A stretch of 47,267 bases of DNA from Oceanicola sp. S124. Its GTDB lineage: Bacteria > Pseudomonadota > Alphaproteobacteria > Rhodobacterales > Rhodobacteraceae. Under the pieces are notes generated by a model. The model did no database searches, had not been told where the DNA came from, and was given only the letters and a program-made list of their open reading frames with translations. Below, piece by piece: positions 1-17,373 of the stretch. Location: contig NZ_AFPM01000034.1 in NCBI RefSeq assembly GCF_000220565.1, forward strand, positions 1 through 47,267. The letters are read 5' to 3'. The position numbers were made by a program, and so were the translations under genes. Each line of letters begins with the position of its first letter. Within the stretch, counting starts at the first letter, position 1.

Positions 1-192
1 GCCAATATCGGCGAGTGGCAGCGCGACGTGCACGCGGTCTCGGTCCCCTACCGCAGCCCCCAGGCCGATACGCCGATGCTGTCCTTCAACCTCGGCGGCT
101 ATGCCTTCTCGCTGCCCAAAGACCGGCTGGAGAACGAGCTCGGCCCCAAGCTGGTCGAACTGTCGCGCATGGTCAGCCGCACCGGGTACTGA
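1..192 (+). CDS. IclR-family transcriptional regulator (C-terminal fragment)
   Basis: Only the last 63 codons are inside the window; the gene begins upstream. The residues GEWQRDVHAVSVPYRSP followed by LSFNLGGYAFSLP and a final helix of the form RLENELGPKLVELSRMV match the end of the IclR effector-binding domain. IclR proteins bind short palindromes and usually control nearby catabolic genes. It lies just before an acyl-CoA ligase / Liv importer / beta-oxidation locus, so it is the natural candidate regulator (inference). The DNA-binding domain cannot be checked here. Confidence 0.8.
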   Translation, partial: ANIGEWQRDVHAVSVPYRSPQADTPMLSFNLGGYAFSLPKDRLENELGPKLVELSRMVSRTGY

Positions 193-201
193 CCACCTTC
201 C

Positions 202-359
202 CTCTATCCGATGGCTGGAAATACTGCGGGGGAGACGCGCGGAGCGCGGCGGGGGCGAGAGCCCCCTCGCCACGTCGGAGGTGTCGGAAGCCGGGAGGGG
301 GCTCTGCCCCGCCAGCCTGCGGCTGGCTCCCCCGCAGTATTTCCAGCCATCGGATAGAG
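202..359. repeat. Large palindromic intergenic repeat (copy 1)
   Basis: A perfect 33-bp inverted repeat has arms at 202-234 and 327-359. Its core (204-233 and its complement at 328-357) recurs, with changes, at about 17401, 33404 and 47082. A second, shorter GC-rich inverted repeat lies between the arms (GAGCCCCCTC near 260 against GAGGGGGCTC near 295). The RNA could form a very long cruciform-like hairpin. It fills most of the gap between the convergent IclR and reductase genes, so it may also end transcription from both sides (inference). Confidence 0.85.
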
Positions 360-402
360 AAAGAAGGGGAGCCCTTCAGACCGAAGCGCTCCAATCGCGT
401 AG

Positions 403-420
403 GGTGGGTGCCAACCCACC
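403..420. terminator. Short inverted repeat between convergent genes
   Basis: GGTGGGT and ACCCACC form perfect 7-bp arms around a 4-nt loop, seven bases past the stop codon of the minus-strand reductase gene at 427. The position suits a terminator for that gene. No T-run follows, so the call is tentative. Confidence 0.4.
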
Positions 421-426
421 ACTCCC

Positions 427-1392: not shown

Positions 1393-1482
1393 GTCGTTCC
1401 TCCCTCGTGATTCGGCGGGCCGGACAGCGCCGTGTCACCGCCCCGGCAGGCTAGGCCATCGCCCAATTTATATCATTGAAAA

Positions 1483-1647: not shown

Positions 1648-3288
1648 ATGGAAGGCATGATGATGCACCGGCCGCTGCTGGTGTCGACGATTCTCGAATA
1701 TGCGATGAACGCCCACCGGAAAGCCGGCATCACTTCGGTGCGCACCGAGGGGGACACGCATTCCTACAACTACCCCGAGGCGGGCGTGCGGATCGCCCAG
1801 CTGGCCCATGCGCTGCAGGCGCGCGGCATCACGCTGGGTGACCGCGTGGCGACCCTGGCCTGGAACGGCTACCGGCACTTCGAGCTTTACTACGCCATCT
1901 CGGGCATCGGCGCGGTCTGCCACACGATCAACCCCCGGCTCTCGGCCGAGCAGCTGATCTACATCGTCAACCATGCCGAGGACCGCATCCTCTTCCTCGA
2001 CACCACCTTCGTGCCGATCATCGCCGCGGTGAAGGAGCACCTGCCCGAGGACATGACCTATGTGATCATGACCGACCGCGCGCATATGCCCGACACGCCC
2101 TTCCCCGCGCTCTGCTACGAAGAGCTGCTCGAGGGCCAGCCCGGGCAGATCACCTGGCCCGAGTTCGACGAGAACACCGCCTGCAGCCTCTGCTACACCT
2201 CCGGCACCACCGGCAATCCCAAGGGCGCGCTCTATTCGCACCGCTCGACGGTGCTGCATGCCTTCACCATCGCCATCTCCCTGCGTCACAGCTTCGGCGA
2301 GGGGCGCGCCATCCTGCCCGTCGTCCCGCTGTTCCATGTCAATGCCTGGGGCCTGCCCTATGCGGCGCCGCTGGTCGGGGCCTCGCTGGTGATGCCGGGC
2401 CCTGCGCTGGACGGGCCCAGCCTCTTTGCCCTGATGGACCGCGAAAAGGTCTATTCCGCCTGGGGCGTGCCCACCGTCTGGATGGGCCTGCTGGCCGAGA
2501 TCCGCGCCCAGGGCCGCAAGCCCGAGAACTTCGGTGACGTGGTAATCGGCGGCTCAGCGGCACCGAAGGCGATGATCGAGGGCTTCGAGAAGATGGACAT
2601 CTCCGTTGGTCACGCCTGGGGCATGACCGAGATGTCGCCGGTCGGCACCCACGGCTGCCTGCCCCAGTGGATGGAGGCCCTGCCCTTCGAGGAGCGCATC
2701 GCCGCCAAGGCCAAGCAGGGCCGCCGGGTGTATGGTGTCGACCTGAAGATCGTCGACGAGGACGGCCGCCCGCAACCGCAGGACGGCAAGGCCATCGGAG
2801 AGCTCTTCGTGCGCGGCAATGCCGTGGTCTCGGGCTACTTCCGCAATGAAGAGGCCAGCGCCAAGGCGCTGGATGCCGAGGGCTGGTTCGGCACCGGCGA
2901 CGTGGCCTCGATCGACCCGGACGGCTTCCTGGTGATCCAGGATCGGGCCAAGGACCTGATCAAGTCGGGCGGCGAGTGGATATCCTCGATCGACCTCGAG
3001 AATGCCGCCATGTCCCTGCCCGGCATCGCCAATTGCGCCGCCATCGGCGTACCGCATCCCCGCTGGGATGAGCGCCCGGTGCTGGTCGCCGTGGCCTCGG
3101 GCGAGGCGCGGCCTTCGCTGGACGAGATCCGCGAACATATCTCGCCCCATTTCGCCAAGTGGCAGCTGCCCGATGACGTGATCTGGGTCGATGCCCTGCC
3201 GATGACCGCCACCGGCAAGGTCAGCAAGCTGAACCTGCGCAAGCAGCTGGTCGACTACGAACACCCCGAGCTGCGCGAAACCGCCTGA
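1648..3288 (+). CDS. Fatty-acyl-CoA ligase (AMP-forming; DmdB/FadD-like)
   Basis: 546 residues. The enzyme activates a carboxylic acid to its acyl-CoA through an acyl-adenylate. The phosphate loop YTSGTTGNPKG is at about residues 183-193, an adenylate-binding GMTE motif lies mid-protein, GWFGTGDVASID starts the hinge region, and the C-terminal PMTATGKVSK holds the adenylation lysine. The ATG at 1648 was chosen for its GGGAGGAG ribosome site 8 bp upstream; an in-frame ATG at 1492 lacks one and would add a poorly conserved leader. The MATLAWN/GYRHFELYY-type N-terminus resembles medium-chain ligases and the roseobacter methylmercaptopropionate ligase DmdB; the substrate is not settled. Confidence 0.9.
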   Translation: MEGMMMHRPLLVSTILEYAMNAHRKAGITSVRTEGDTHSYNYPEAGVRIAQLAHALQARGITLGDRVATLAWNGYRHFELYYAISGIGAVCHTINPRLSAEQLIYIVNHAEDRILFLDTTFVPIIAAVKEHLPEDMTYVIMTDRAHMPDTPFPALCYEELLEGQPGQITWPEFDENTACSLCYTSGTTGNPKGALYSHRSTVLHAFTIAISLRHSFGEGRAILPVVPLFHVNAWGLPYAAPLVGASLVMPGPALDGPSLFALMDREKVYSAWGVPTVWMGLLAEIRAQGRKPENFGDVVIGGSAAPKAMIEGFEKMDISVGHAWGMTEMSPVGTHGCLPQWMEALPFEERIAAKAKQGRRVYGVDLKIVDEDGRPQPQDGKAIGELFVRGNAVVSGYFRNEEASAKALDAEGWFGTGDVASIDPDGFLVIQDRAKDLIKSGGEWISSIDLENAAMSLPGIANCAAIGVPHPRWDERPVLVAVASGEARPSLDEIREHISPHFAKWQLPDDVIWVDALPMTATGKVSKLNLRKQLVDYEHPELRETA

Positions 3289-3335: not shown

Positions 3336-3339
3336 TCGC

Positions 3340-4137
3340 TCACGGGAAGACCAGCAGCGGCCCGGGGTCGTCCACGGTCCCCATGGCCGGGGCCGCGAGA
3401 TCCGGCACCGCCTTCGGCGCCGAGAGGCAGCGCCCCGCCATGTCGGTTAGGACATAGACCTGCCCCGGGGCGCCCTCCAGCCGCATCCTCTCCTTCATCG
3501 CGCCCTCGGGCACGACCTCCTCGGTTCCGGTGAACTGGTAGACCAGCGCCGGGGCGCCACTGTCGTTGCGGAGGTGGAAGAAGGTCCAGCCCTCTTCGCC
3601 GACCGGGACCGAGGCCGGATCCGGGCAGCCCTCGCCCAGCAGGGGCACCTCGGTCAGGTCGGCCTCGTAGGCCGGGCCCTCGGCGGCCCCGGCGCAGTCT
3701 GCCAGCCCGCGCCGGATCGCCGGCAGGTCGGTCAGCCGGAAGATGCCGCCGCCGTCCTCCCACTCGGGGTGCAGGTCGATCCAGGCCGCCCCGTCGAGCG
3801 CTTCGGCCAGCGCCGCGCCGCCGTCGATCACCCGGTCCCACTCCTCCTCGCCCAGCATCACGGGGAAGAGCCTGCCATCGACCGAGACCTGCTGATCCGG
3901 CAGCACCTCGAAATAGGCGTCGGTCGACAGCACCAGCCCCTGCGCACCCTCGCGGATCGCCAGGGTCGGCCCCGCCGAGACGTTGAAGGCGGTGCAGCGG
4001 AACTCTCCGCTGTCGCCCCACCAGTCGCCGAGGATCGCCCAGGCTCCGACCTCGAGCCTCACATGGGCCTCCGCCCGCGCCATCGCCGGGCCCAGAAAAA
4101 GCGCCGCGCAGAGCGCGACCAGTGCGTCCGTCCTCAT
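3340..4137 (-). CDS. Hypothetical exported protein
   Basis: 265 residues, not recognised. The N-terminus MRTDALVALCAALFLGPAMARAE is a typical Sec signal peptide with likely cleavage after ARA, so the product is probably periplasmic. Three cysteines in the mature part (around CTAF, CAGA and CPDP), plus CLS near the end, could form disulfides. No enzymatic motif was seen. It is monocistronic, between the ligase terminator and a gap before the Liv operon, and nothing ties it functionally to its neighbours. Coding is supported by the signal peptide and the normal high-GC codon pattern. Confidence 0.7.
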   Translation of the reverse strand: MRTDALVALCAALFLGPAMARAEAHVRLEVGAWAILGDWWGDSGEFRCTAFNVSAGPTLAIREGAQGLVLSTDAYFEVLPDQQVSVDGRLFPVMLGEEEWDRVIDGGAALAEALDGAAWIDLHPEWEDGGGIFRLTDLPAIRRGLADCAGAAEGPAYEADLTEVPLLGEGCPDPASVPVGEEGWTFFHLRNDSGAPALVYQFTGTEEVVPEGAMKERMRLEGAPGQVYVLTDMAGRCLSAPKAVPDLAAPAMGTVDDPGPLLVFP

Positions 4138-4361: not shown

Positions 4362-5084
4362 TCACACCTCCAGCCACTCCTTGCGGATGTCGTCGCGGGT
4401 GGCGAACTCGGCCGGGGTGCCGGAATAGACGATCTCTCCGTGCCCCATCACATAGACCCGGTCGGCGATCTTCAGGGCGATGGACAGCTTCTGCTCGACC
4501 AGCAGGATCGAAACCCCGGCCCTGGCGATTTCGGCGATCATCTCCCCCACCTGGGTGACGATCAGCGGGGCGAGGCCTTCGGTCGGCTCGTCGATGATGA
4601 TCAGCTCAGGGTCACCCATCAGGGTCCGGCACATGGTCAGCATCTGCTTCTCGCCGCCCGAAAGCACCCCCGCCGCGTTGTCGGCACGACGGGCCAGGTT
4701 GGGGAACATCTCCAGCATCTGCTCGATCGACCAGCGCCCGGGCTTGCGCATGTTCTTGATGCCCAGCATCAGGTTCTGGCGCACCGTCATCGTCGGGAAG
4801 ATGTCCCGGCTTTCCGGCACGTAGCCCAGGCCCATGCGCGCGATCTTGTGGTTCGGCAGGCCAGCGATCTCCTGGCCCCGGAAGCGGATGGAGCCCTGCG
4901 GTGCCACCTCGCCCATGATCGCCTTGGCGGTGGTCGAACGCCCCACGCCGTTGCGGCCCAGCAGGGCGATGACCTCGCCCGGCATGATCTGCATGTCGAC
5001 CCCGTGCAGCACGTGGGACTTGCCGTAGTAGGCATGCAGGCCACTGACCTGCAGCATCGGCTCCTGGGTGGTGTCCAGACTCAT
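4362..5084 (-). CDS. livF: Liv-type ABC transporter ATP-binding protein LivF
   Basis: 240 residues, normal for LivF. One of two ATPases that power a branched-chain-amino-acid-type (HAAT) importer at the inner membrane. The ABC signature LSGGE is at 141-145 and Walker B LIIIDEP at 161-167. The Walker A loop reads GRNGVGRS (43-50): arginine 49 stands where the canonical lysine should be, confirmed in the DNA as CGT. I recall this change in other LivF-like proteins, so it may be a lineage trait and not damage. The start overlaps the livG stop by 4 bp (ATGA). The cargo may be a carboxylate for the neighbouring beta-oxidation genes instead of an amino acid (inference). Confidence 0.88.
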   Translation of the reverse strand: MSLDTTQEPMLQVSGLHAYYGKSHVLHGVDMQIMPGEVIALLGRNGVGRSTTAKAIMGEVAPQGSIRFRGQEIAGLPNHKIARMGLGYVPESRDIFPTMTVRQNLMLGIKNMRKPGRWSIEQMLEMFPNLARRADNAAGVLSGGEKQMLTMCRTLMGDPELIIIDEPTEGLAPLIVTQVGEMIAEIARAGVSILLVEQKLSIALKIADRVYVMGHGEIVYSGTPAEFATRDDIRKEWLEV

Positions 5085-5839
5085 GCCGCGTCCTCCGCCT
5101 CTTCGCCCAGATAGGCTTCGCGCACCCTGGCATCGCCGCGGATCTGCTCTGGCGTGCCGGTGGCAATGATCTCGCCGTAGACCAGCACAGAGATCCGGTC
5201 GGCGAGGTTGAAGACCACGCCCATGTCGTGCTCGACGATCAGCAGGGTCTTGCCCTTGCTGGCCTTCTCGATCAGCGCCACGGCACGGTCAGTTTCCGAG
5301 TGGCTCATCCCCGCCGTCGGTTCGTCCAGCAGGATGACCTCGGCGCCGCCCGCGATGGTGATGGCGATCTCGAGCGTGCGCTGATCGGCATAGGGCAGCA
5401 ACGCGGCGGGGGTGTTGCCCTTTTCCAGCAAGCCGACCTCGTTCAGGATATGCGCCGTCTTTTCCGACACCTCCCGCAGGTTGCCGATATTGCGCCAGAA
5501 GGAATAGCCGTAGCCCATCGAGTGCAGCACGCCGCAGCGGACATTCTCGCGCACCGTCATGTTGGTGAAGATGTTCGACACCTGGAAGCTGCGCGACAGC
5601 CCCATGCGGTTGATCTCGAACGGCTTCTTGCCGCTGATCAGCGCGCCGTTCAGCCGCACCTCTCCCGAGGAGGGCATGAAGCGGCCCGAGATCAGGTTGA
5701 ACAGGGTGGACTTGCCCGCCCCATTCGGCCCGATGATCGCGTGACGCTCGCCCCTGGCGACGCTGAGGTTGACGCCCTGGATGATCTTGGCGGGGCCGAA
5801 GCTCTTGTGCAGGTCGGTCAGTTCGAGGGATGCGGTCAT
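5081..5839 (-). CDS. livG: Liv-type ABC transporter ATP-binding protein LivG
   Basis: 252 residues, normal for LivG. Walker A GPNGAGKST is at 37-45, Walker B VILLDEP at 168-174 and the H-loop histidine at 204. The signature region has YADQRTLEIA, the degenerate form usual in LivG. It pairs with LivF, whose Walker A is altered, so this subunit holds the canonical ATP site. It overlaps both neighbours by 4 bp, which indicates translational coupling in the order permease, permease, LivG, LivF. Confidence 0.9.
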   Translation of the reverse strand: MTASLELTDLHKSFGPAKIIQGVNLSVARGERHAIIGPNGAGKSTLFNLISGRFMPSSGEVRLNGALISGKKPFEINRMGLSRSFQVSNIFTNMTVRENVRCGVLHSMGYGYSFWRNIGNLREVSEKTAHILNEVGLLEKGNTPAALLPYADQRTLEIAITIAGGAEVILLDEPTAGMSHSETDRAVALIEKASKGKTLLIVEHDMGVVFNLADRISVLVYGEIIATGTPEQIRGDARVREAYLGEEAEDAA

Positions 5840-7095
5840 TTGCTCTCTCCCTTGGCGGCTTTCATCACCATGACGACGCCCAGGACCAGCGGCAGTACGC
5901 CAAGGGCCCAGGTCAGCGGGTTGTCGGTGCCAAGATGCAGGCCGAAGGGCTCGAAGACCTCGCCGTAGCCCTCGGACCAGCGGAAGGCGACCTCGACGAT
6001 GGTGATCACCGAGGTGGCGATCAGCGCCAACCCGGCCAGCCGCAGCAGCCAGCTTTGCCAGACCTCGCCGAGACGACCGGCACGGAGGGTGTCGGCGGTG
6101 CCGTAGACGATGCCCGCGATCCCGTTGGGCAGGAACATCACCACGCCGACGAACATCAGCCCGAGGTAGAGCAGCCAGCCCACCGTGTAGTCCGACAGGT
6201 TAGAGCCCATGTAGGTCATGACGATGGCGCCCATGATCGGGCCGGTGAAGTAGCGGATGCCACCGACGTAGGTGGCGATCAGGATCGCCCCCGAGGGGAT
6301 CAGCGACAGGCTTTCGGGGGTGAAGATCTCGTCCTGCACCGCCGACATGCCGCCCGCCATCCCGGCGAAGGCGCCGGCGAAGATGAAGACCAGGTAGCGC
6401 ACCCGCTGGGGATTGTAGCCAACGAACTCGACCCGTTCGGGATTGTCGCGCGTCGCTTCCGACAGCTTGCCCAGCGGGGTGCGGGTGAAGGCATAGGTGC
6501 CCAGCACGCCGATGAAGGTCCAGAAGGCGATGAACCAGTAGACCTCGTCGACCGGCCCCAGAGAGAGGCCGGCGAATTCGGGCCCGCCCATGCGGTCGGC
6601 CGAGATGCCCATCTCGCCGCCGAAGAGGCTGTCGAACATGAAGCCCGCCGCCGCGACCAGCTCGGCCACGCCGAGGGAGATCATCGCGAAGGGGGTGCCC
6701 GAGCGACGACAGGAGGGCCAGCCGATGATGGCCCCAGCCAGCGCCCCGGCGCCGAAGCCGAAGGCGGGCATCGAGAAGATCGGCACCGCCCCCCAGAAGC
6801 CCGAGCCCTCGGCCACCCAGTTCATCACATGGACGGCGAAGTAGCCGCCAAGGCCCATGTAGACGGCATGGCCGAAGCTGAGCAGGCCGGCGCGGCCCAG
6901 AAGCATGTTGTAGCTGAGCGCGAAGACGATGGTGATGCCCATGTGGTTCAGCAGCGTCACCATGCTGCGCGACGGGTTGAACAGCGGGATCACCAGCAGC
7001 ACCACCGCGAAGAGGATCAGCGGCACGGTGCGCTGTCGGAACTTCTCGGCGCGGGTCGGTTCCAGCGCGGCGTAGGTAGCGGTCATGTCGGTCAT
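5836..7095 (-). CDS. livM: Liv-type ABC transporter permease LivM
   Basis: 419 residues, a polytopic inner-membrane protein with many hydrophobic helices. The LLGRAGLLSFGHAVYMGLGG stretch is the hallmark of LivM permeases, and EAA-type loop sequence follows the PERVEFVGYNPQRVRYLVF region. It is longer than a minimal LivM because of an extended C-terminal part with a further hydrophobic helix. The start at 7095 overlaps the livH stop (ATGA); an internal ATG nine bases later is possible. Confidence 0.88.
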   Translation of the reverse strand: MTDMTATYAALEPTRAEKFRQRTVPLILFAVVLLVIPLFNPSRSMVTLLNHMGITIVFALSYNMLLGRAGLLSFGHAVYMGLGGYFAVHVMNWVAEGSGFWGAVPIFSMPAFGFGAGALAGAIIGWPSCRRSGTPFAMISLGVAELVAAAGFMFDSLFGGEMGISADRMGGPEFAGLSLGPVDEVYWFIAFWTFIGVLGTYAFTRTPLGKLSEATRDNPERVEFVGYNPQRVRYLVFIFAGAFAGMAGGMSAVQDEIFTPESLSLIPSGAILIATYVGGIRYFTGPIMGAIVMTYMGSNLSDYTVGWLLYLGLMFVGVVMFLPNGIAGIVYGTADTLRAGRLGEVWQSWLLRLAGLALIATSVITIVEVAFRWSEGYGEVFEPFGLHLGTDNPLTWALGVLPLVLGVVMVMKAAKGESK

Positions 7096-8024
7096 ACTTC
7101 ACGTTCTCCCATCAGTCCGCGCGGACGGATCATCAGGATCAGCACCAGCAGCAGGAAGGGCAGCATCGGCGCCATGGAGGCGATGGTGATCTCTCCGACC
7201 TCGGTATGGGGGCCAAGGCCGAGGAAGCCGAAGATATCGGCCAGCGAGGCGTTGATCGAGATGGCAGAGGTCTGCAGCAAGCCGATCAGCATGGCGGCGA
7301 CGAAGGCGCCCTCGAGGCTGCCGAGCCCGCCGACGACCACCACCACGAAGACGATGGGGCCCATCTGCACCGCCATGGCCGGGTCGGTGACGAAGTAATT
7401 GCCCCCGATCACGCCGGCCAGGCCCGCCAGCGCGCAGCCGACGCCGAAGACGGACATGAAGATCAGCGGCACGTTGTGGCCGAGGCTGCCGACCATGTGC
7501 GGATGGGTCAGCGCCGCCTGGATGATCAGACCGGCGCGGGTCTTCTTCAGCAGGTACCACAGCGCCACCAGCATGAAGGCCGCCACGAAGAGGATGAAGA
7601 TACGATAGGCCGGGTACTGCGCCCCGTAGAGGGTGAACAACGGGAAATCCAGCAACTCGGGCACGCGGTAGTTCACCGCCGTTCGGCCCCAGAAAATCTT
7701 GACCACCTCGTCGATCAGGTAGGCCAGGCCGAAGGTGAAGAGCAGTTCGGCCACATGCCCCTGCGCATGGACGCGCCGCAGCCCGTAGCGCTCGACCACC
7801 ATGCCCACGAGTCCGACGAGGACCGGGGCGAGGAAGAGCGCGATCCAGAAGGAGGTGCCCTCCATGATCGTGAAGGCAAGGTAGGCGCCCAGCATGTAGA
7901 AGCTGGCATGTGCGAAGTTCAGCACGCCCATCATGGAAAAGATCAGCGTCAGACCGCTGGACAACATGAAGAGCAGAAGCCCGTAGATCACGCCGTTGAG
8001 CAGCGCGAAGACCAGAGTTTCCAT
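7092..8024 (-). CDS. livH: Liv-type ABC transporter permease LivH
   Basis: 310 residues, the usual LivH length. It opens with ALLNGVIYGLLLFMLSSGLT and the MMGVLNFAHASFYMLGAY segment typical of LivH permeases. Several transmembrane helices follow, including the VVVVGGLGSLEGAFVAA loop that contacts the ATPases. It is separated from the binding-protein gene by an 84-bp gap holding a stem-loop, and overlaps livM by 4 bp. Confidence 0.9.
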   Translation of the reverse strand: METLVFALLNGVIYGLLLFMLSSGLTLIFSMMGVLNFAHASFYMLGAYLAFTIMEGTSFWIALFLAPVLVGLVGMVVERYGLRRVHAQGHVAELLFTFGLAYLIDEVVKIFWGRTAVNYRVPELLDFPLFTLYGAQYPAYRIFILFVAAFMLVALWYLLKKTRAGLIIQAALTHPHMVGSLGHNVPLIFMSVFGVGCALAGLAGVIGGNYFVTDPAMAVQMGPIVFVVVVVGGLGSLEGAFVAAMLIGLLQTSAISINASLADIFGFLGLGPHTEVGEITIASMAPMLPFLLLVLILMIRPRGLMGEREV

Positions 8025-8061
8025 GGTTCATTCCCGAAGTTTGTCCGCCCCGAAGGGGTCA

Positions 8062-8090
8062 GGCGCCACACGAAGGGACCGCGTGGCGCC
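8062..8090 (-). promoter_or_regulatory. Intercistronic stem-loop between binding protein and livH
   Basis: GGCGCCAC and GTGGCGCC form perfect 8-bp arms around a 13-nt loop in the 84-bp gap between the two genes, with no T-run. Such structures behind a binding-protein gene often protect or partially terminate the message, giving more binding protein than permease. That role is inferred from position. Confidence 0.5.
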
Positions 8091-8108
8091 CGGTTTGTGA
8101 CTGGGGCC

Positions 8109-9488: not shown

Positions 9489-10682
9489 ATGCTGGATTTC
9501 AGCGACGACCCGGAGGTCTTCCGGGCCAATGTTTCCACGTGGATCGAGACCCATTGCGACCCCGCGCTGAGGGCGATTCCCCAGGCAGAGCGCGAGATCT
9601 GCTGGGGTGGCAGGCGCTTCACCTTCGCCTCGCAGGCGCAGCAGGACTGGATGCGCGCCGCCGCCGCCATCGGCATGACCGCACCACGCTGGCCCACCGA
9701 CTACGGCGGCGCCGGGCTGAGCCGCCTGCAAGAGAAGATCTACCGCGAGGAGCTGGCACGCCTGAACGCCCCCACCCCGCTGGAGAGCTTCGGCCTCTGG
9801 ATGCTCGGGCCCGCCCTGCTGGCCTTCGGCACGCACGAGCAGAAACGGCACTACCTGCCGCAGATCACCCGCGGCGAAATCCGCTGGTGTCAGGGCTACT
9901 CCGAACCCGGCGCCGGCTCGGACCTGGCCTCGGTCCAGACCCGTGCGGAGGACCGGGGCGATCACTGGCTGGTCAACGGCTCGAAGATCTGGACCAGCTA
10001 CGCCGACCAGGCCGACTGGATCTTCGCCCTGGTGCGCACCGACCGCGAGGCCCCGAAGCATCGCGGCATCTCGTTCATGCTGATCGACATGGAAGCGGAA
10101 GGAGTCACAACCCGCCCGATCCGCCTGATCTCCGGCGCGTCCCCCTTCTGCGAGACCTTCTTCGAGAATGTCGTCGTGCCCAAGGAAGACCCCGTCGGCC
10201 TGTCCCGCATCGTGGGCGAGCTGAACCGCGGCTGGGATGTCGCCAAGCACCTGCTGACCCATGAACGCGAGATGATCGGCGGCGGCGCGCAGGGGCTTCT
10301 GGGCGCCCGATCGCTTGGCGCCTTCCTGGCGGATCTCGACCCCGAGGTGCTCGAGGATCCGGTGCTGAAGACCCGCGCCATGGCGTTGGAAGTCGACAGC
10401 CTCGCCACCGCCATGACGCTTGAGCGGTACAGGGACATGGCGAAGCAGGGCGGCGTCGGCCATGCCTCGGCGATGCTGAAATACGCCGGAACCGAGCTGA
10501 ACAAGCGCCGCTACGAGTTGCTGATGTCCGTCACCGGGTCGGACGGGCTGGACTGGGACGGGGCCCATGGCTCGCTTCCCTCGGAATGGCTGCGCACCAA
10601 GGCGAATTCGATCGAAGGCGGCACCTCCGAGGTGATGCTCGACATCCTCGCCAAACGCGTCCTCGACCTGCCCTCGCAATAG
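9489..10682 (+). CDS. Acyl-CoA dehydrogenase, large subunit of a probable heteromer
   Basis: 397 residues. FAD enzyme making the alpha,beta double bond of an acyl-CoA. CQGYSEPGAGSD (134-145) is the flavin-binding signature. At the position of the medium-chain enzyme's catalytic glutamate the sequence reads IEGGTSE, with glycine in that slot; the LTHER glutamate (259) is placed like the base of isovaleryl-/long-chain enzymes and is the likelier base (inference). TTGGGGAGG precedes the ATG. A second, shorter dehydrogenase follows after 9 bp, as in PimC/PimD- or ChsE-type heteromers that act on unusual acyl chains. Confidence 0.88.
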   Translation: MLDFSDDPEVFRANVSTWIETHCDPALRAIPQAEREICWGGRRFTFASQAQQDWMRAAAAIGMTAPRWPTDYGGAGLSRLQEKIYREELARLNAPTPLESFGLWMLGPALLAFGTHEQKRHYLPQITRGEIRWCQGYSEPGAGSDLASVQTRAEDRGDHWLVNGSKIWTSYADQADWIFALVRTDREAPKHRGISFMLIDMEAEGVTTRPIRLISGASPFCETFFENVVVPKEDPVGLSRIVGELNRGWDVAKHLLTHEREMIGGGAQGLLGARSLGAFLADLDPEVLEDPVLKTRAMALEVDSLATAMTLERYRDMAKQGGVGHASAMLKYAGTELNKRRYELLMSVTGSDGLDWDGAHGSLPSEWLRTKANSIEGGTSEVMLDILAKRVLDLPSQ

Positions 10683-10691
10683 GAGACCTCC

Positions 10692-11816
10692 ATGACCCTT
10701 TCCCTGGTCCCGACCGAGGACGAAACCCTGCTGCGCGACGCGGCCCGAAGCTTTCTGGCCGAGGCCAGCCCGGTCTCTGCGCTGCGCGGCAATCGCGACA
10801 GCGGCAAACCATACGATGCCGGATTTTATCGCGAGATCGCGCAGCTTGGCTGGACCGGCGTGCTGGTACCGGAAGAGGCCGGAGGGTCCGACATGGGCCA
10901 CCGCGCAGCCGGCATCCTGGCCGAGGAAATGGGAGAGGTGCTGGCCGCCTCGCCCTTCCTCTCGACCGCCGTGATCGCCGCAACCGCCCTGCGGCAGGCG
11001 GGCAGCGACCGGCTCGCCCAGATCGCCGACGGCAGCGTCACCTATGCGCTCGCGGTCGACGAAAGGTCGAAATTCTCTCCTGAGCGCAGTGCCTTGCAGG
11101 CCATGCGACAGGGCAATAGCTACCGACTGAGCGGGCGCAAGTGCTTCGTCGCCGAGGGCAGCAGCGCAGATCGCCTGCTGGTTCTGGCCCGCACCTCGGG
11201 CAGCCCGGGTGAGGCATATGGCCTGACCCTCTTCGACATCGACGCAGCGCGGACAGGCGTTACGCCGCATCGCAGCAGGTCGATCGACAGCCGCGACCAC
11301 GCCACGCTGATCTTCGAGGACGTCGAGGCCACCGGCGCCGATATCATCGGTGAAATCGACAACGGAATGGCCGCAATCCATACGGCACTGAACGCAGGCC
11401 AGGCGGGCATGGCCGCCGAGCTTCTGGGGCTGACCTCCGGGGCCTTCGCCATGACCGCCGGCTACCTGCGCGAGCGCCGGCAATTCGGGCGTACCATCGG
11501 ATCGTTCCAGGCGCTGCAGCATCGCGCCGCACATCTCTGGACCCAGATAGAGATCACCGCCTCGGCCGTCGCCAATGCGGGCCGCGTGCTGGATGCCACC
11601 CCCGAGGCCGCCGACCTAGCCGTCTCGGTCGCCAAGGCCCATGCCACCCAGACCGCGCAGCTCGCCGTCTGTGAAGGCGTCCAGATGCATGGCGGCATCG
11701 GCATGACCGATGAATTCGATATGGGGTTCTACATGAAACGCGCCCGCGTCGGCGCCGAATGGTTGGGCGACTACGGCTATCACGCCGCCCGGGTATCCGC
11801 CGCGAGAGGTATATGA
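10692..11816 (+). CDS. Acyl-CoA dehydrogenase, small subunit
   Basis: 374 residues. It has the acyl-CoA dehydrogenase fold (GGSDMGHRAAGILAEEMG early; RRQFGRTIGSFQALQHR and CEGVQMHGGIGMTDEFDMG late) but ends in GAEWLGDYGYH with no EGT-like catalytic segment, as seen in the smaller subunit of heteromeric enzymes. It probably completes the flavin or acyl pocket of the 9489 product. RBS AGGAGA precedes the ATG. It overlaps the next gene by 4 bp. Confidence 0.87.
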   Translation: MTLSLVPTEDETLLRDAARSFLAEASPVSALRGNRDSGKPYDAGFYREIAQLGWTGVLVPEEAGGSDMGHRAAGILAEEMGEVLAASPFLSTAVIAATALRQAGSDRLAQIADGSVTYALAVDERSKFSPERSALQAMRQGNSYRLSGRKCFVAEGSSADRLLVLARTSGSPGEAYGLTLFDIDAARTGVTPHRSRSIDSRDHATLIFEDVEATGADIIGEIDNGMAAIHTALNAGQAGMAAELLGLTSGAFAMTAGYLRERRQFGRTIGSFQALQHRAAHLWTQIEITASAVANAGRVLDATPEAADLAVSVAKAHATQTAQLAVCEGVQMHGGIGMTDEFDMGFYMKRARVGAEWLGDYGYHAARVSAARGI

Positions 11817-12643
11817 TGTCCCTGAAACCGAACGATCTTTTCGACCTGACCGGCAAGGTCGCCCTGGTCACCGGCGGCGCCACCGGCATTGGCCGCATGG
11901 CGGCCGAGGGCCTCGCCTCGGCCGGGGCCCGCGTGCTGATCGCCTCGCGCAAGGCCGAGGCCTGCGAGGCCGCCGCCGCCGAGATCAACGCCCTCGACCT
12001 GCCAGGCTCCGCCGAGGGTTTCGCCGGGGACGTCGGCTCCGAAGCCGGGATCGCCGCGCTGGCGGATGCCGTGCGCCAACGTACGGAAAAGCTGCATATC
12101 CTGATGAACAATGCCGGGCGCACCTGGGGCGCGCCGCTCGGAGAGTTCCCCTACGACGCCTGGACCAAGGTGCTGGGCCTCAATGTCAGCGGCATGTTCC
12201 ACCTCACGCAGGCCCTGCTGCCGCTTCTCCGCGCTGCAGCATTGCCCGAAGACCCGGCACGCGTGGTCAACGTCGGTTCGGTCATGGGCGAGATCCCCAA
12301 GGGCCAGGGCGCGTATTCCTACGCGACCTCGAAGGGCGCGGTACATCACATGACCCGCATCCTCGCCAATGAGCTAACCCCTGAACATATCACCGTAAAT
12401 GCCATCGCACCCGGCCCCTTCATGTCAAAGATGATGGCCTTCGCCATCGGCCATGACGAGGGCCGCCGCAAGACCGCCGCCACCGTACCCCTGGGTAGGG
12501 TCGGCGCAGAGGAAGACGTCGCCGGCGTCATGCAGTTCCTCTGCGGCAGGGGCGGCTCCTATGTCTCGGGCGCGGTGATCCCGCTCTCGGGGGGGATGCA
12601 GGTCGCCACGGCGAAGGCCGCCTTCCTGGAGGACGACTCATGA
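11813..12643 (+). CDS. SDR-family oxidoreductase
   Basis: 276 residues. Classical short-chain dehydrogenase: TGGATGIG (20-27) for NAD(P), NNAG (99-102), and the Ser156 / Tyr170 / Lys174 triad in VGSVMGEIPKGQGAYSYATSK. It oxidises or reduces a hydroxy/keto group. The ATG at 11813 overlaps the preceding stop (ATGATG; 11816 is an alternative). A second SDR lies two genes on, so one may act on the chain and the other at the beta-carbon. Confidence 0.87.
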   Translation: MMSLKPNDLFDLTGKVALVTGGATGIGRMAAEGLASAGARVLIASRKAEACEAAAAEINALDLPGSAEGFAGDVGSEAGIAALADAVRQRTEKLHILMNNAGRTWGAPLGEFPYDAWTKVLGLNVSGMFHLTQALLPLLRAAALPEDPARVVNVGSVMGEIPKGQGAYSYATSKGAVHHMTRILANELTPEHITVNAIAPGPFMSKMMAFAIGHDEGRRKTAATVPLGRVGAEEDVAGVMQFLCGRGGSYVSGAVIPLSGGMQVATAKAAFLEDDS

Positions 12644-13104
12644 CCATTCTTACGCGTACGGAATACGAAGCGCTCGTCGGGCAGGAGCTGGGCGTGTCCG
12701 GTTGGATCGAGGTCAGCCAGCAGCGCATCGACGATTTCGCCCGCTGCACCGAAGATGATCAGTATATCCACACCGATCCGGTGCGCGCGGCGGCCAGCCC
12801 CTTCGGCGGCACCATTGCGCATGGCTTCCTGACCCTCTCGCTGCTCTCGACCATGGCCTATGGTTTGCCGCAGATTACGGGCACCGCGATGTCGGTGAAC
12901 TACGGGATGAACCGCATGCGCTTCATCTCTCCGGTCCGCGCGGGCAGCCGCATTCGCGGGCGCTTTATCCTGAAGTCCGTCGACGAAATCCGACCCGGCG
13001 AAATCCAGACGGTAACGGATGTGACCGTCGAGATTGAGGGTCAGGACAAGCCAGCGCTTGTGGCGGAATGGCTTGGCAGACGATATTTCGGAGATGAATC
13101 ATGA
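12640..13104 (+). CDS. MaoC-like (R)-specific enoyl-CoA hydratase, NodN type
   Basis: 154 residues, single hotdog domain. The segment ARCTEDDQYIHTDPVRA holds the Asp and His of the hydratase-2 motif, followed by GGTIAHGFLTLSLL. It would hydrate the enoyl-CoA made by the upstream dehydrogenases to an (R)-3-hydroxyacyl-CoA. It overlaps both neighbouring SDR genes by 4 bp, and pairing with the MFE-2-like SDR fits the (R)-hydroxy route. Confidence 0.88.
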   Translation: MTILTRTEYEALVGQELGVSGWIEVSQQRIDDFARCTEDDQYIHTDPVRAAASPFGGTIAHGFLTLSLLSTMAYGLPQITGTAMSVNYGMNRMRFISPVRAGSRIRGRFILKSVDEIRPGEIQTVTDVTVEIEGQDKPALVAEWLGRRYFGDES

Positions 13105-14027
13105 GCATAGCATTTGATGGCCGTGTCGCCATCGTGACCGGCGCGGGGGTTGGCCTGGGCCGCAGCCACGCCCTGGGCCTCGCGGCGCGCGGCGCGAAAG
13201 TCGTGGTGAATGACCTCGGCACGGCGACCGACGGCACCGGCGAAAGCTCTGCCGCGGCGCAATCGGTGGTCGAGGAAATCCGCGCGGCCGGCGGCGAGGC
13301 CATGGCCCATGGCGCCAATGTGACCGACGCCGCGCAGGTGCAGGATATGGTCGACAAGGCGATCGCGACCTGGGGAAAGGTCGACATCCTCGTCTGCAAC
13401 GCGGGCATCCTGCGCGACAAGACCTTCGCCAAGATGGAACTGTCCGACTTCTCTTCGGTGGTCGACGTGCACCTCATGGGTTCGGTCGTGCCGACCAAGG
13501 CGCTCTGGGAACATTTCCGGACGCAACAGTATGGTCGCATCGTCTACACGACCTCGGCGTCGGGCCTCTACGGCAACTTCGGGCAAGCGAACTACGGCGC
13601 AGCGAAGGCGGCGCTGGTCGGGCTGATGAATGTCCTCTGCCAGGAGGGCGCCAAGTACGACATCCGCGCCAACCTGCTGGCGCCGACCGCCGCGACCCGG
13701 ATGACGGAAGGCCTTCTGCCACAACAGGTTCTTGATCTTCTGCGCCCCGAGACGATCACCCCCGGCCTGCTGACCCTGCTGCACGAAGACGCGCCCTCTC
13801 GGATGATCCTCGGCGCTGGCGGCGGCTGCTTCACCGAGACCCGGATCTACGAAACCCCCGGCCTGGCCTTCGCCGACGATGAGCTGGATCCCGACACCAT
13901 CCATAGCCGTATGGACAAGATCCGCAGCGAAGAGGGTCAGCAGATCATGCCCGGCGCCTTCGCCCAGACCCGCAAGTACGCCGCAATGGCCGCCGCGCTG
14001 CGCGGCATCGACCTCGAAGAAAAGTGA
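13101..14027 (+). CDS. SDR 3-hydroxyacyl-CoA dehydrogenase (MFE-2-like)
   Basis: 308 residues. TGAGVGLG (13-20) binds NAD, CNAGILRDKTF and TSASGLYGNFGQANYGAAK (Tyr165, Lys169) match the dehydrogenase domain of peroxisomal multifunctional enzyme type 2, which oxidises (R)-3-hydroxyacyl-CoA. The C-terminal 80 residues extend beyond a minimal SDR, as in that family. The MaoC gene upstream would supply the substrate, so the two together equal a split MFE-2 (inference). Confidence 0.88.
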   Translation: MSIAFDGRVAIVTGAGVGLGRSHALGLAARGAKVVVNDLGTATDGTGESSAAAQSVVEEIRAAGGEAMAHGANVTDAAQVQDMVDKAIATWGKVDILVCNAGILRDKTFAKMELSDFSSVVDVHLMGSVVPTKALWEHFRTQQYGRIVYTTSASGLYGNFGQANYGAAKAALVGLMNVLCQEGAKYDIRANLLAPTAATRMTEGLLPQQVLDLLRPETITPGLLTLLHEDAPSRMILGAGGGCFTETRIYETPGLAFADDELDPDTIHSRMDKIRSEEGQQIMPGAFAQTRKYAAMAAALRGIDLEEK

Positions 14028-14048
14028 ACTTCCCGGAAGGATTTCCTA

Positions 14049-15251
14049 ATGCGTGATGCAGTTATCGTCTCCACCGCCCGCACCCCGATCGGCAAGGCCT
14101 TTCGCGGAGCCTTCAACAACACCCAGGCGCAGGCCCTGATCGGCCACGCGGTGAAGCACGCCGTTTCCCGCGCCGGGCTCGAGGGACCCGAGATCCAGGA
14201 TTGCGTCATCGGCACGGCGCTGCAGCAGGGGTCGACCGGCGGCAATATCGGGCGACAGGCCGCGATCCGCGCCGGTCTGCCGACCAGTGTTGCCGGCATG
14301 TCGCTGGACCGTCAGTGCGCCTCGGGCATGATGGCCATCGCCACGGCCGCCAAGCAGATCACCCAGGACGGCATGCAGGTCGCCATCGGCGGCGGGGTCG
14401 AGTCCATCTCGTTGGTACAGAACCAGAATATGCGCACAGATCGGGCCCGCGACCCCTGGATCCAGGAGCACCGCCCGGATCTCTACATGTCCATGCTCGA
14501 GACCGCCGAAATCGTCGCCGAGCGCTATGGCGTGAGCCGTGAAGACCAGGATGCCTACGCGCTTCGCAGCCAGCAACGCACCGCGGCCGCGCAAGAGGCC
14601 GGCAGGTTCGACGACGAGATCGTGCCGATGACCGCCACCATGGGCGTAATGGACAAGGAGACCAGGGAGATCTCTTTCCACGAGGTCACCCTGGCCAAGG
14701 ACGAAGGCAACCGGCCCTCGACCACGCTTGAGGGCCTGTCGAGTCTGGCGCCCGTCTTCAAGGATGGCCAGCAGGTCAAGGAAGGTAAATACATCACCGC
14801 AGGGAATGCCTCGCAACTGTCCGACGGGGCCTCTGCCTCGGTGCTGATGGAGGCGAAGGAGGCCGAGAAGCGCGGGCTGCAACCGCTGGGTCGTTATGTC
14901 GGCGTCATGGCGGCGGGTCTCGACCCCGACGAGATGGGCATCGGCCCGATCCATGCGGTGCCGAAGTTGCTGGACGCCCATGGACTGAAGATCGACGATA
15001 TCGGCCTCTGGGAACTCAACGAGGCCTTCGCCTGTCAGGTGCTGCATTCGGCCCGCGTTCTGGGCATCCCCAAGGACCTGCTGAACGTCAACGGCGGCGC
15101 GATCTCGGTCGGCCACCCCTACGGCATGTCCGGCGCCCGGATGGTCGGCCATGCGCTGATCGAGGGCAAGCGGCGCGGCGCGCGCTATGTGGTCTGCACC
15201 ATGTGCGTCGGGGGCGGCATGGGCGCTGCCGGGCTCTTCGAAGTGCTCTGA
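14049..15251 (+). CDS. Acetyl-CoA C-acyltransferase (thiolase)
   Basis: 400 residues, normal for degradative thiolases. All catalytic residues are present: Cys90 in DRQCASGMM, His356 in ISVGHPYG and Cys386 in [10 protein letters not shown]. It cleaves the 3-ketoacyl-CoA made by the preceding SDR to acetyl-CoA (or propionyl-CoA for a branched chain) and a shortened acyl-CoA. GGAAGGA precedes the ATG 21 bp after the SDR stop. Confidence 0.93.
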
Positions 15252-15259
15252 GCATACGG

Positions 15260-15922
15260 ATGGGTACGCTTTATCTCATCCGTCACGGCCAGGCGTCTTT
15301 CGGCGCCGCAGACTACGACGTCCTGTCGGAAACGGGTCATGCGCAGGCGCGCGCCCTGGGTCGCTGGTTCGCGGCCCAGGGGATCCGGCCGGACCGCCTG
15401 GCCCATGGCGGGCTGCGACGCCAACGGGAAACGCTGGAATCCATACTTACCGGTATGGATTCCAACGGCTCAGCCGAGGAGCATCCCGGCCTCAGCGAGT
15501 TCGACTTCAAGGCGCTGCTCGACGCACGCTTCGCCGCCGAGCCGGCCCCCACCGGTTTGCACGATGACCGGCGCAGCCACTTCCGCACCCTGCGCGACAC
15601 CGTCCTGATGTGGCAGCGGGACGAGATCGCGGCCGCCCCCGAGAGCTGGGCAGCCTTCACCGCCCGGGTGGAGGCGGCCCGCGCCCACCTGATGCGCGAG
15701 GGGGCCGAGACGGTCTTCGCGGTCTCTTCCGGCGGGGCGATCAGCCAGATGATCGCGGCCACGCTTGGCGCCCCGGGAAAGGCCCAGATCGACCTGCAGT
15801 TGCAGACCCGGAACTGCGCCGTCGCGCGCTTCGTCTTCACCCGCCGGGGCCACTACCTGAACGGGTTCAATGACACGCCGTTCCTGACCTCGCCCGACGA
15901 TCCGCTGCTGACCTATTCCTGA
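15260..15922 (+). CDS. Histidine-phosphatase-fold protein lacking the second catalytic His
   Basis: 220 residues. The RHGQ motif (8-11) keeps the phospho-accepting His9, and RRQRET supplies the usual arginine. In the block normally written VSHGG the sequence is VSSGG (155-159), so Ser157 replaces the second active-site histidine. I recall an SSGG form in a subfamily of phosphoglycerate-mutase-like proteins found near acyl-CoA genes, so it may be conserved and not a defect. The ATG at 15260, 8 bp after the thiolase stop, gives a start directly on the fold. The adjacent kinase suggests removal or handling of a phosphorylated acyl intermediate (inference). A 12-bp perfect inverted repeat lies inside the gene. 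Confidence 0.85.
   Translation: MGTLYLIRHGQASFGAADYDVLSETGHAQARALGRWFAAQGIRPDRLAHGGLRRQRETLESILTGMDSNGSAEEHPGLSEFDFKALLDARFAAEPAPTGLHDDRRSHFRTLRDTVLMWQRDEIAAAPESWAAFTARVEAARAHLMREGAETVFAVSSGGAISQMIAATLGAPGKAQIDLQLQTRNCAVARFVFTRRGHYLNGFNDTPFLTSPDDPLLTYS
15435..15464. repeat. Perfect 12-bp inverted repeat inside a coding region
   Basis: TGGAATCCATAC at 15435-15446 and GTATGGATTCCA at 15453-15464 are exact complements around the 6-nt loop TTACCG. It is much less GC-rich than its surroundings. It codes for the stretch LESILTGMDSN of the histidine-phosphatase-fold protein. Confidence 0.8.
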
Positions 15923-15928
15923 GAGGCC

Positions 15929-16963
15929 ATGATGACCAGCGACACCCAGACCCTCGACCTGCCCGCCGTGGAGCGCTGGCTGAAGGACACCCTGCCCGGC
16001 TTCCAAGGGCCTGTCAGCGCAGAAAAATTCAACGTCGGGCAGTCCAATCCGACGTTCCGCCTGACGACCCCCTCGCACCGTTACGTGCTGCGCCGCAAGC
16101 CCCCCGGCGTGCTGCTGAAATCCGCCCATGCGGTCGAGCGCGAGTTCCGCGTGCAGAAGGCGCTGGCCGGCACCGGGGTCCCGGTGGCGAAGATGCATGT
16201 GCTCTGCGAGGACCCCGAGGTCATCGGCTCGGCCTTCTATGTCATGGACGAGGTGCAGGGACGCCATTTCAATCTGCCCGACCTGCCCGAACTGGATCGC
16301 GACCAGCGACGCCCGATCCAGCAGGAAATGTCCCGCGTTCTGGCCGCCATCCATGGTGTCGATCTCGCCGCGACGGGCCTGTCGGACTACGGCCCCGAGG
16401 GCAATTACTACCGCCGCCAGATCGACCGCTGGACCAAGCAGTACCGCGCCGCCGAGACCGAGACCCGCCCCGAGATGGACGCCCTGATGGACTGGCTCGA
16501 TGGCAACATCCCCGAGGATGACGGGTTGCGTACGCTGGCGCATGGGGACTACCGGATCGACAACATGCTGTTCGAAAAGGACGCCCCCCGCATCGCCGCC
16601 GTGCTGGACTGGGAGCTTTCGACCACCGGCCATCCATACGCCGACGTAGCAGCGGTGATCATGCAGTGGTCGATGCCTTCGGGTCCGGACGGGCGCGGCC
16701 TTGCGGGCGTCGACCGCCGGGCACAGGGGGTGATGGAGGACGAGGAGTTCCTCGCCGACTACTGCGCCCGCGCCGGGATCCCCGGCATCGAGGGCTTCGG
16801 CTTCTACCTGGCCTTCACCTTCTTCCGCATGGCTGGCATCATCCAGGGCGTCTACAAGCGCGCGCTCGACGGCAATGCCTCGAACCCGGAACGCGGCCGG
16901 CAGATGGGGGCGCTGGTGCCCCGCTTTGCCCGCGCCGGTCTGGACGCCGCACAAACTGTCTGA
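15929..16963 (+). CDS. Phosphotransferase-family protein (ACAD10/11 N-terminal kinase type)
   Basis: 344 residues. APH-like kinase fold: HGDYRIDN (205-212) is the catalytic HxD...N motif and DWEL (227-230) the metal-binding acid, with LRRKPPG carrying the likely ATP-binding lysine. Members related to the kinase domains of human ACAD10/11 and to LvaA of levulinate degradation phosphorylate 4-hydroxyacyl-CoAs so that the hydroxyl can be removed or moved. Placed within a beta-oxidation operon, the same role is the best hypothesis. The ATG at 15929 or 15932 may be used. Confidence 0.85.
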   Translation: MMTSDTQTLDLPAVERWLKDTLPGFQGPVSAEKFNVGQSNPTFRLTTPSHRYVLRRKPPGVLLKSAHAVEREFRVQKALAGTGVPVAKMHVLCEDPEVIGSAFYVMDEVQGRHFNLPDLPELDRDQRRPIQQEMSRVLAAIHGVDLAATGLSDYGPEGNYYRRQIDRWTKQYRAAETETRPEMDALMDWLDGNIPEDDGLRTLAHGDYRIDNMLFEKDAPRIAAVLDWELSTTGHPYADVAAVIMQWSMPSGPDGRGLAGVDRRAQGVMEDEEFLADYCARAGIPGIEGFGFYLAFTFFRMAGIIQGVYKRALDGNASNPERGRQMGALVPRFARAGLDAAQTV

Positions 16964-16971
16964 GAGGCCCG

Positions 16972-17373
16972 ATGGACCCGAACCTGGTCGAAGATCCCTA
17001 TCCGCTGCAATCCCACCTGGGCTTCCGCATCGCCGAATGGCGCAAGGACTACGCGCGCTTCGAACTGCCGATGGAAGACTTCCTGATGAACCGCTACGGC
17101 ATCCTGCATGGCGGGGTGCATTCGCTGATGTGCGACACCGTAATGGGCTTTGCCGGCTGCTACACCGGGGATCCCGAGGCCCGCGCGCTGGCTATGACGC
17201 TGAATCTCAGCGTGAATTTCCTGGCGCAGACAAAGGGCAAGCTGCTGATCGCGGAAGGCTTCCGCACTGGCGGCGGGGCGAAGACCTTCTTCGCCGAGGC
17301 GAAGATCAGCGATGAGACAGGCGTTCTGGCCGCCACTGGCACCGGCGTGTTCCGGGTCCGGCAGGGGGGCTGA
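16972..17373 (+). CDS. PaaI-type hotdog thioesterase
   Basis: 133 residues, normal for PaaI-type thioesterases. NRYGILHGGVHSLMCDTVMG holds the HGG loop (46-48) and catalytic Asp55 of the family, and NLSVNFL is the usual central strand. It would free CoA from dead-end or excess acyl-CoA intermediates. Last gene of the nine-gene operon, 8 bp after the kinase gene. The ATG at 16972 was chosen because it starts the fold; longer in-frame extensions run into the kinase gene. Confidence 0.88.
   Translation: MDPNLVEDPYPLQSHLGFRIAEWRKDYARFELPMEDFLMNRYGILHGGVHSLMCDTVMGFAGCYTGDPEARALAMTLNLSVNFLAQTKGKLLIAEGFRTGGGAKTFFAEAKISDETGVLAATGTGVFRVRQGG

Follow-up and report, generated by a model that had tools for sequence, protein, structure and literature searches.

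A kinase-centered acyl-CoA degradation cluster of Oceanicola sp. S124 that probably serves 4-hydroxy acid breakdown through a phosphorylated intermediate

We analyzed a 47,267-nucleotide stretch of DNA (hereafter the window) that constitutes the whole of contig C306 (NZ_AFPM01000034.1) in the draft genome of Oceanicola sp. S124 (339 contigs, 91.66% complete), focusing on a cluster of acyl-CoA degradation genes in its first 17,373 positions that includes a predicted 4-hydroxyacyl-CoA kinase. Enzyme and importer genes in the window were assigned through Pfam and NCBIfam. Nine genes on the + strand (9489 to 17373), each with an ATG start and a stop codon, follow one another with intergenic gaps of 9, −4, −4, −4, 21, 8, 6, and 8 bp. 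The first two encode the acyl-CoA dehydrogenase subunits AcdA (PimC-like, 9489 to 10682; closest solved relatives Tcur3483 and 4x28_A) and AcdB (PimD-like, 10692 to 11816; Tcur3481 is its third-best solved match). They are followed by a short-chain dehydrogenase, SDR1, predicted to act at a 4-oxo/4-hydroxy or 3-hydroxy step (11813 to 12643); a MaoC-type (R)-specific enoyl-CoA hydratase with a D....H.D motif (12640 to 13104); SDR2, a (3R)-hydroxyacyl-CoA dehydrogenase of the MFE-2/HSD17B4 type (13101 to 14027; best match 2et6, E = 4e-118); and an acetyl-CoA C-acyltransferase (thiolase) with CASGM, GHPYG, and CVGGG motifs (14049 to 15251). The operon ends with a histidine-phosphatase-fold protein, HPase (PF00300, 15260 to 15922), which keeps the RHG motif and has Ser157 (VSSGG) in place of the second catalytic histidine; the predicted kinase, of the ACAD10/11-LvaA type (15929 to 16963; Pfam APH, with an ACAD11 match); and a PaaI/4HBT hotdog thioesterase (16972 to 17373). 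A preliminary description of this DNA had placed nine genes in one tight operon, which the spacing bears out. The other genes that it named are also present, with two corrections: the regulator is there only in part, and an oxidoreductase-like gene and an open reading frame (ORF) at 3340 to 4137 share the interval.

Divergent from the operon, the − strand encodes a branched-chain-amino-acid-type ATP-binding cassette (ABC) importer (LivF, LivG, LivM, LivH, and a substrate-binding protein; 4362 to 9347). An AMP-forming acyl-CoA ligase lies farther left on the + strand (1648 to 3288), and strand and location mark the ligase, importer, and operon as three distinct units. The top NCBIfam model of the ligase is 3-methylthiopropionyl-CoA ligase (735 bits, under the cutoff of 822), its start codon is uncertain (the ORF opens at 1492), and it was detected in 30 of 80 kinase loci fetched from relatives, 63 of which are at least 20 kb long. 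Toward the left edge are an NCBIfam-assigned MDR-family NAD(P)H:quinone oxidoreductase-like gene (427 to 1392, − strand), also found in 9 of the 80 loci, and the C-terminal 63 codons of an IclR-family regulator gene cut by the contig edge (1 to 192, + strand). The 265-codon ORF at 3340 to 4137 (− strand) has no Pfam or NCBIfam match.

Among solved proteins, the kinase sequence matched 3dxp best (357 bits), followed by ACAD11 (256 to 260 bits) and 9o56 (160 bits). Identity to the ACAD11 kinase domain is 41% (136 of 328 aligned positions), and the catalytic HGDxxxxN loop of the APH/PKL fold is retained. At the equivalents of D220, N225, and R176, once a one-residue shift in chain numbering is taken into account, the kinase has D, N, and R; R86 could not be placed. 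By its sequence, the enzyme is a kinase of the ACAD10/11-LvaA kind, a class set by comparison with the ACAD11 kinase domain and not with the LvaA sequence itself. Passages of PMC11342911 and PMC12440821 describe ACAD10/11 kinases as phosphorylating 4-hydroxyacyl-CoAs, with the dehydrogenase domain then eliminating the phosphate. A hydroxylated acyl-CoA is the best reading of the substrate predicted for the kinase, in keeping with what the preliminary description had proposed for both the enzyme class and the substrate.

That description also implied that the heteromeric dehydrogenase pair of the operon works with the kinase, which the residues of the pair do not support. In ACAD11, R626, H634, and R637 hold the phosphate and D753 is the catalytic base, according to passages of PMC12440821. 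At the equivalents of these four positions, two alignments gave A-M-E-E for AcdB; AcdA, in which the region is gapped, gave L-H-E-D in one alignment and L-gap-gap-D in the other. We therefore rejected both subunits as the phosphate-eliminating enzyme, since the R-H-R-D signature is absent. It is likewise absent from eight other distinct alignable dehydrogenase matches of the genome, including one from a second heteromeric pair described below; in this own-genome control, L093 gave no match and two lower matches, one of them AcdB, had no locus. The genome encodes one LvaC-type enzyme, on contig C257 (13464 to 14663, − strand), which carries the full signature in both alignments and is 54% identical to its Roseibium homologue. 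Among LvaC-type proteins from the fetched kinase loci, 32 of 33 have the full signature, the other (L077) having E for D. The likely partner of the kinase is this LvaC-type dehydrogenase outside the window.

The neighbors of the LvaC-type gene on C257 are an SDR gene, a second CoA ligase gene, and, at the contig end, the 5′ part of an IclR gene (207 codons). This part matches the IclR helix-turn-helix and C-terminal domains; the 63-codon piece at 1 to 192 of the window alone had no NCBIfam match. In Pseudooceanicola antarcticus, P. spongiae, P. marinus, and a metagenome-assembled genome (MAG; L001), 6 bp separates the two IclR halves, which are in frame, and a single stretch runs LvaC-type gene, SDR3, ligase 2, IclR, oxidoreductase, ligase 1, Liv genes. 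Because the IclR halves and the gene order are contiguous in these four relatives, C257 and C306 are very probably neighbors, and the left edge of the cluster as seen in the window is therefore an assembly break. The contiguity of the halves and the N-terminal 207 codons on C257 are also the grounds for assigning positions 1 to 192 to the regulator. The quinone oxidoreductase-like gene holds the same position beside the regulator and ligase in four Pseudooceanicola-type genomes, in which, by subtraction of positions, the LvaC-type gene lies about 19.5 to 20.9 kb upstream of the kinase. The ORF at 3340 to 4137 has a homologue (66 to 85% identity) in two of the four Pseudooceanicola-type stretches.

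We then considered the distribution of the kinase and the LvaC-type enzyme across 200 genomes sampled from the phylum, which were searched with kinase (E ≤ 1e-25), LvaC-type (E ≤ 1e-80), and HPase (E ≤ 1e-8) queries and with the DUF6285 family. The kinase was detected in 51 genomes and the LvaC-type enzyme in 50, all 50 of which had both, and no genome had the LvaC-type enzyme alone (Fisher's p of about 1e-46, with relatedness ignored). In the sole kinase-only genome (G045), a dehydrogenase beside the kinase is 36% identical to the LvaC-type enzyme of Oceanicola sp. S124 and has the full signature. An LvaC-type gene was located within 5 kb for 35 of 64 kinases in the sample. A set of 34 of the 80 fetched loci (one left out) led to 33 genomes, and all but one of these, a 3.0-Mb MAG, contain an LvaC-type gene at E ≤ 1e-80 (32 of 33); in several there are two or three, which differ in identity. 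In Marivita loci (L042 and others), the LvaC-type gene and kinase directly follow dnaA-dnaN-recF-gyrB.

A paper citing Rand 2017 describes LvaB as acting with LvaA in P. putida. LvaB (DUF6285) had no match in the genome of Oceanicola sp. S124 (91.66% complete) and was for this reason rejected as a hidden kinase partner. In the phylum sample, DUF6285 scored above the cutoff in 14 of 200 genomes (22 at E ≤ 0.01) and lay within 5 kb of only 1 of the 64 kinases, which leaves almost no LvaB-type cases by which to weigh a rule that HPase replaces LvaB; kinases nearer LvaA may fall beyond the 1e-25 limit.

The cluster is real and conserved. The complete nine-gene operon, at set identity limits, is present in 17 of the 63 loci of at least 20 kb (two of the 17 being P. 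marinus strains), a recurrence that argues for more than a chance assemblage. Eleven of these 17 also retain the importer genes for the substrate-binding protein and LivH, and across all 80 loci the former was found in 20 and the latter in 19. The closest relatives of the kinase are those of P. antarcticus (93% identity), a Rhodobacteraceae MAG (92%), and P. marinus (88%), in a list from which entries for the window's own genome may be missing. A nitronate-monooxygenase-family protein (PF03060) is encoded in 25 of the 80 kinase loci (e.g., L027 and L010), its gene lying mostly just 5′ of the LvaC-type, HPase, or kinase gene among the matches listed.

The remaining operon enzymes resemble those of β-oxidation. 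The best solved matches of SDR2 are the (3R)-hydroxyacyl-CoA dehydrogenases 2et6 and HSD17B4, with the active-site stretch GNFGQANY in common, and MaoC retains its D....H pair, as expected from the (R)-route hydratase and SDR proposed earlier. MaoC, SDR2, and the thiolase would thus supply an (R)-route turn, and in combination with the kinase and the LvaC-type enzyme they would make a full turn from a 4-hydroxyacyl-CoA to acetyl-CoA and a shortened acyl-CoA. AcdA and AcdB resemble the paired subunits of a heteromeric dehydrogenase and score below the NCBIfam equivalog cutoffs of PimC (256.8 versus 623.85 bits) and PimD (169.4 versus 652.7 bits), respectively; they presumably serve ordinary or branched chain rounds.

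Related genes continue rightward in the window at 27.6 to 37.9 kb. A protein resembling CurA/LTB4DH-type NADPH alkenal/enone reductases, below the CurA cutoff, is encoded at 27631 to 28677 (+ strand). CurA/LTB4DH-family reductases act on alkenals and enones, an activity in line with 4-hydroxyalkenal or oxylipin debris as a possible origin for some of the substrate. Of the 63 loci of at least 20 kb, 17 have a reductase homologue that starts 362 to 531 bp past the end of the kinase match; the thioesterase is present in all 17, and in 11 a dehydrogenase pair follows on the other strand. In the window, about 10 kb separates thioesterase and reductase, an interval with ThiO-like, MnmC2, EamA, lytic transglycosylase, M90 peptidase, glyoxalase, aminotransferase, rhodanese, and SmpB genes. 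Farther right on the − strand are a second heteromeric acyl-CoA dehydrogenase pair (33534 to 35782, NCBIfam), made up of PimD-like (33534 to 34601; 242 bits against a cutoff of 653) and PimC-like (34598 to 35782; 478 against 624) subunits, and a FadB/FadJ-like enoyl-CoA hydratase/3-hydroxyacyl-CoA dehydrogenase (35786 to 37879, Pfam/NCBIfam). The preliminary description had called the locus self-contained; however, the LvaC-type dehydrogenase lies beyond its left edge, and the second dehydrogenase pair and the FadB-like and CurA-like genes lie to its right.

HPase departs from the phosphatases that it resembles. Its structural model (mean predicted local distance difference test score, 92) matches phosphoserine phosphatase, PGAM5, and CobC in fold, and RHG and an arginine are present, but Ser157 stands where the CobC-type protein has histidine. 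The two-histidine (2H) phosphatase motif set is accordingly incomplete; passages of PMC5501728 describe two histidines and two arginines as the invariant catalytic cluster of histidine phosphatases. The phosphatase-like protein of the preliminary description is therefore upheld as to fold, whereas a plain phosphatase role is doubtful because one of the two catalytic histidines is lacking. The serine could still support catalysis. It occupies this position in 37 of 39 HPase-matching kinase loci among those fetched (self excluded; the other two are L078 and L080) and in all 29 HPases examined from the phylum sample, G064, a partial match, being without usable sequence. Two other histidine phosphatases of the Oceanicola sp. 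S124 genome (L139 and L142) retain the histidine, and L141 was not resolved. As far as examined, the serine is, judging by these sequences, a trait of the whole HPase subfamily. HPase matches occurred in 29 of the 200 sampled genomes, 28 of which also have the kinase, and 19 of 31 matches in the sample lie within 5 kb of a kinase.

By way of comparison, passages of PMC11342911 describe the HAD domain of ACAD10 as having only one Asp of the DxD motif and negligible phosphatase activity, with a change of that Asp raising kinase activity. We hypothesize that HPase restrains the kinase or handles stalled phospho-acyl-CoA. A bolder proposal makes HPase a specialized companion of 4-hydroxyacyl-CoA kinases that, with the second histidine fixed as serine, has changed or lost its phosphatase chemistry. 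In this proposal it would sense or sequester phospho-acyl-CoA and restrain the kinase, as a bacterial counterpart of the ACAD10 HAD domain in an unrelated fold, and would possibly stand in for LvaB; we put this forward tentatively and regard it as somewhat doubtful. Against this proposal, the serine is also found in 11 fetched members farther than 5 kb from a kinase, and 23 of the 51 kinase genomes have no match to the HPase subfamily at E ≤ 1e-8, so the kinase does not always need HPase. Within the scope of titles and the beginnings of abstracts, with subscription papers mostly outside the coverage, no report of the serine substitution was found, and a histidine phosphatase beside an LvaA-type kinase was reported in PMC6692424 only.

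Taken together, these results suggest that the cluster probably degrades 4-hydroxy acids, or 4-oxo acids or γ-lactones convertible to them, via phosphorylation and β-oxidation. The sequences directly show the gene content, its conserved order, the pairing of kinase and LvaC-type enzyme, and the signature residues; from these we infer each reaction in Oceanicola sp. S124 and how long the acyl chain is, while uptake of the substrate through the Liv system is proposed from gene proximity. In the proposed pathway, (i) one of the two ligases would convert the acid to its CoA ester, and an SDR would make the 4-hydroxyacyl-CoA if needed; (ii) the kinase would phosphorylate the 4-hydroxyl group of the 4-hydroxyacyl-CoA, and the LvaC/ACAD11-type dehydrogenase of C257, about 20 kb upstream, would eliminate the phosphate to give a 2-enoyl-CoA; (iii) MaoC would hydrate the 2-enoyl-CoA to the (R)-3-hydroxyacyl-CoA, SDR2 would oxidize this, and the thiolase would release acetyl-CoA; and (iv) the AcdA/AcdB pair would begin further rounds or handle the shortened or branched chain. 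Stalled CoA esters or the phospho-intermediate would be kept in check by the thioesterase and probably also by HPase.

Several observations weigh against this reading. The kinase and the LvaC-type gene are on different contigs here and on opposite strands 20 kb apart in relatives, so their joint expression is something we infer. Several other genomes hold both closer Roseibium-like LvaC-type enzymes (about 70 to 73% identity) and more distant ones; because of this, and because the LvaC-type enzyme of Oceanicola sp. S124 is only 54% identical to the kinase-adjacent enzyme of Roseibium, closer and distant types may have diverged in substrate. LvaB, as noted, is absent from the genome. The binding-protein match is unspecific, of a generic amino-acid type, and model and fold search together yielded no ligand. 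The likeness of AcdA and AcdB to dehydrogenases for steroid side chains and pimeloyl-CoA might indicate a substrate of another class. As for HPase as a restrainer of the kinase, the kinase-adjacent histidine phosphatases of two Noviherbaspirillum loci (L078 and L080), which belong to another subfamily, retain the second histidine, which fits a working phosphatase there.

The dehydrogenase likeness underlies two rival explanations. The cluster might carry out β-oxidation of sterol or bile-acid side chains or of other bulky acids, with the heteromeric pair central and the kinase an accessory for one hydroxylated intermediate. Tcur3483 and 4x28_A as the best solved matches of AcdA, Tcur3481 as third for AcdB (proteins with steroid roles), and the second heteromeric pair at 33.5 to 35.8 kb are consistent with such a pathway. 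We nevertheless judge it improbable: the kinase pairs with LvaC-type enzymes in the phylum sample, AcdA/AcdB of the window type (at least 55% identity) occur in just 22 of the 80 kinase loci, and none of the window genes scanned, the only part of the genome covered, was identified as a steroid ring-degradation gene. Degradation of dicarboxylates of the pimelate or adipate type, suggested by PimC and PimD as the top NCBIfam models of both dehydrogenase pairs, is less probable still, since all four subunits fall below the PimC/PimD cutoffs and the kinase would be left without a role. A view of the kinase as an unrelated small-molecule enzyme of, say, the aminoglycoside resistance type, brought by chance into a fatty-acid operon, is very hard to credit. 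The Pfam family of the kinase is APH and it weakly matches resistance-kinase models, but at 21 to 32 bits against cutoffs of at least 205, compared with about 256 to 260 bits for the ACAD11 kinase domain; its tight co-occurrence with LvaC-type enzymes also argues otherwise.

The importer poses a separate question, for it may be an ordinary amino-acid importer whose position is incidental to the acid pathway. We find this quite plausible without favoring it. In a fold search with its model, the binding protein was 30% identical to its closest solved relative, the Leu/Ile/Val/Thr/Ala-binding protein of Brucella ovis, and 6 of the 17 complete-operon loci lack the substrate-binding protein and LivH within the fetched flank. 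In the other 11, however, these genes are retained, divergent beside the operon, and they also occur in loci without detected AcdA/AcdB (e.g., L008, L022, L048, and L065).

With 4-hydroxy acid breakdown as the preferred reading, the cluster is most probably a variant of the lva/ACAD10-11 theme with a Ser-for-His phosphatase-fold companion. The lva operon for levulinate, as portrayed in passages citing Rand 2017, likewise combines a CoA ligase, an SDR, a 4-hydroxyacyl-CoA kinase, an LvaC-type dehydrogenase, and a phosphorylated intermediate. In contrast to that operon, the window cluster is without LvaB/DUF6285; within the cluster (other places in the genome were not searched), it has IclR in place of the LvaR sigma54 regulator and the Liv ABC importer in place of LvaF/G; it adds a full (R)-route β-oxidation turn and heteromeric dehydrogenases; and in relatives about 20 kb separates its LvaC-type gene from the kinase. 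With ACAD10 and ACAD11, as described in parts of PMC11342911 and PMC12440821, it shares a kinase and a phosphate-eliminating dehydrogenase with the same signature residues, and the phosphatase-fold domain of ACAD10, like HPase, is short of one catalytic residue. Unlike ACAD10/11, the activities here are on separate polypeptides within a bacterial importer and β-oxidation cluster, and the phosphatase fold is that of histidine phosphatases rather than HAD. In a short levulinate-induced cluster of Pseudomonas citronellolis LA18 that lacks lvaB, passages of PMC6692424 place a histidine phosphatase gene between an LvaA-like kinase and an LvaC-like dehydrogenase and suggest that it may remove phosphate from 4-phosphovaleryl-CoA; they do not mention loss of the second histidine, and we compared that phosphatase by description only. 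The heteromeric dehydrogenases Tcur3481/3483, the 4x28 pair, and PimCD consist, as AcdA/AcdB do, of two adjacent divergent subunits of matching type, AcdA/AcdB being set apart from PimCD by scores below the PimC/PimD cutoffs.

Not until 2024 to 2025 were mammalian genes linked to the entry of 4-hydroxy acids into β-oxidation via a phosphorylated intermediate. In our sample of 200 genomes, the kinase and the LvaC-type enzyme travel together; marine Rhodobacteraceae embed the pair in a full (R)-route β-oxidation cluster with an importer; and an HPase without the catalytic histidine often accompanies the kinase. Why such kinases pair with an impaired phosphatase domain (HAD in ACAD10, HPase here) becomes testable in small bacterial proteins.

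Some further features of the window were recorded. A fatty-acid-desaturase-family protein (PF00487; 32217 to 33377, + strand) adjoins the second dehydrogenase pair and has HELMH, NYVEHYG, and LQRHSDHH stretches, which are typical of AlkB alkane 1-monooxygenase. An Rfam search of the window gave no match. Promoter and terminator scans, which were not used in the argument, returned 2 sites versus 1.0 expected (one promoter-like site lying between importer and operon) and 7 versus 3.9 expected (standard deviation, 2.0), respectively. A REP-like intergenic repeat of the ATCCGATGGCTGGAAATACTGC type occurs at 206 to 227, 334 to 355, 17403 to 17424, 17447 to 17468, 33410 to 33431, and 47088 to 47109, with two copies separating the oxidoreductase gene from the end of IclR and another two right after the thioesterase gene. 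Genome-wide, the pattern matched 64 times with at most one mismatch (33 forward and 31 reverse) versus 0 for the reversed control, often as inverted pairs about 45 bp apart.

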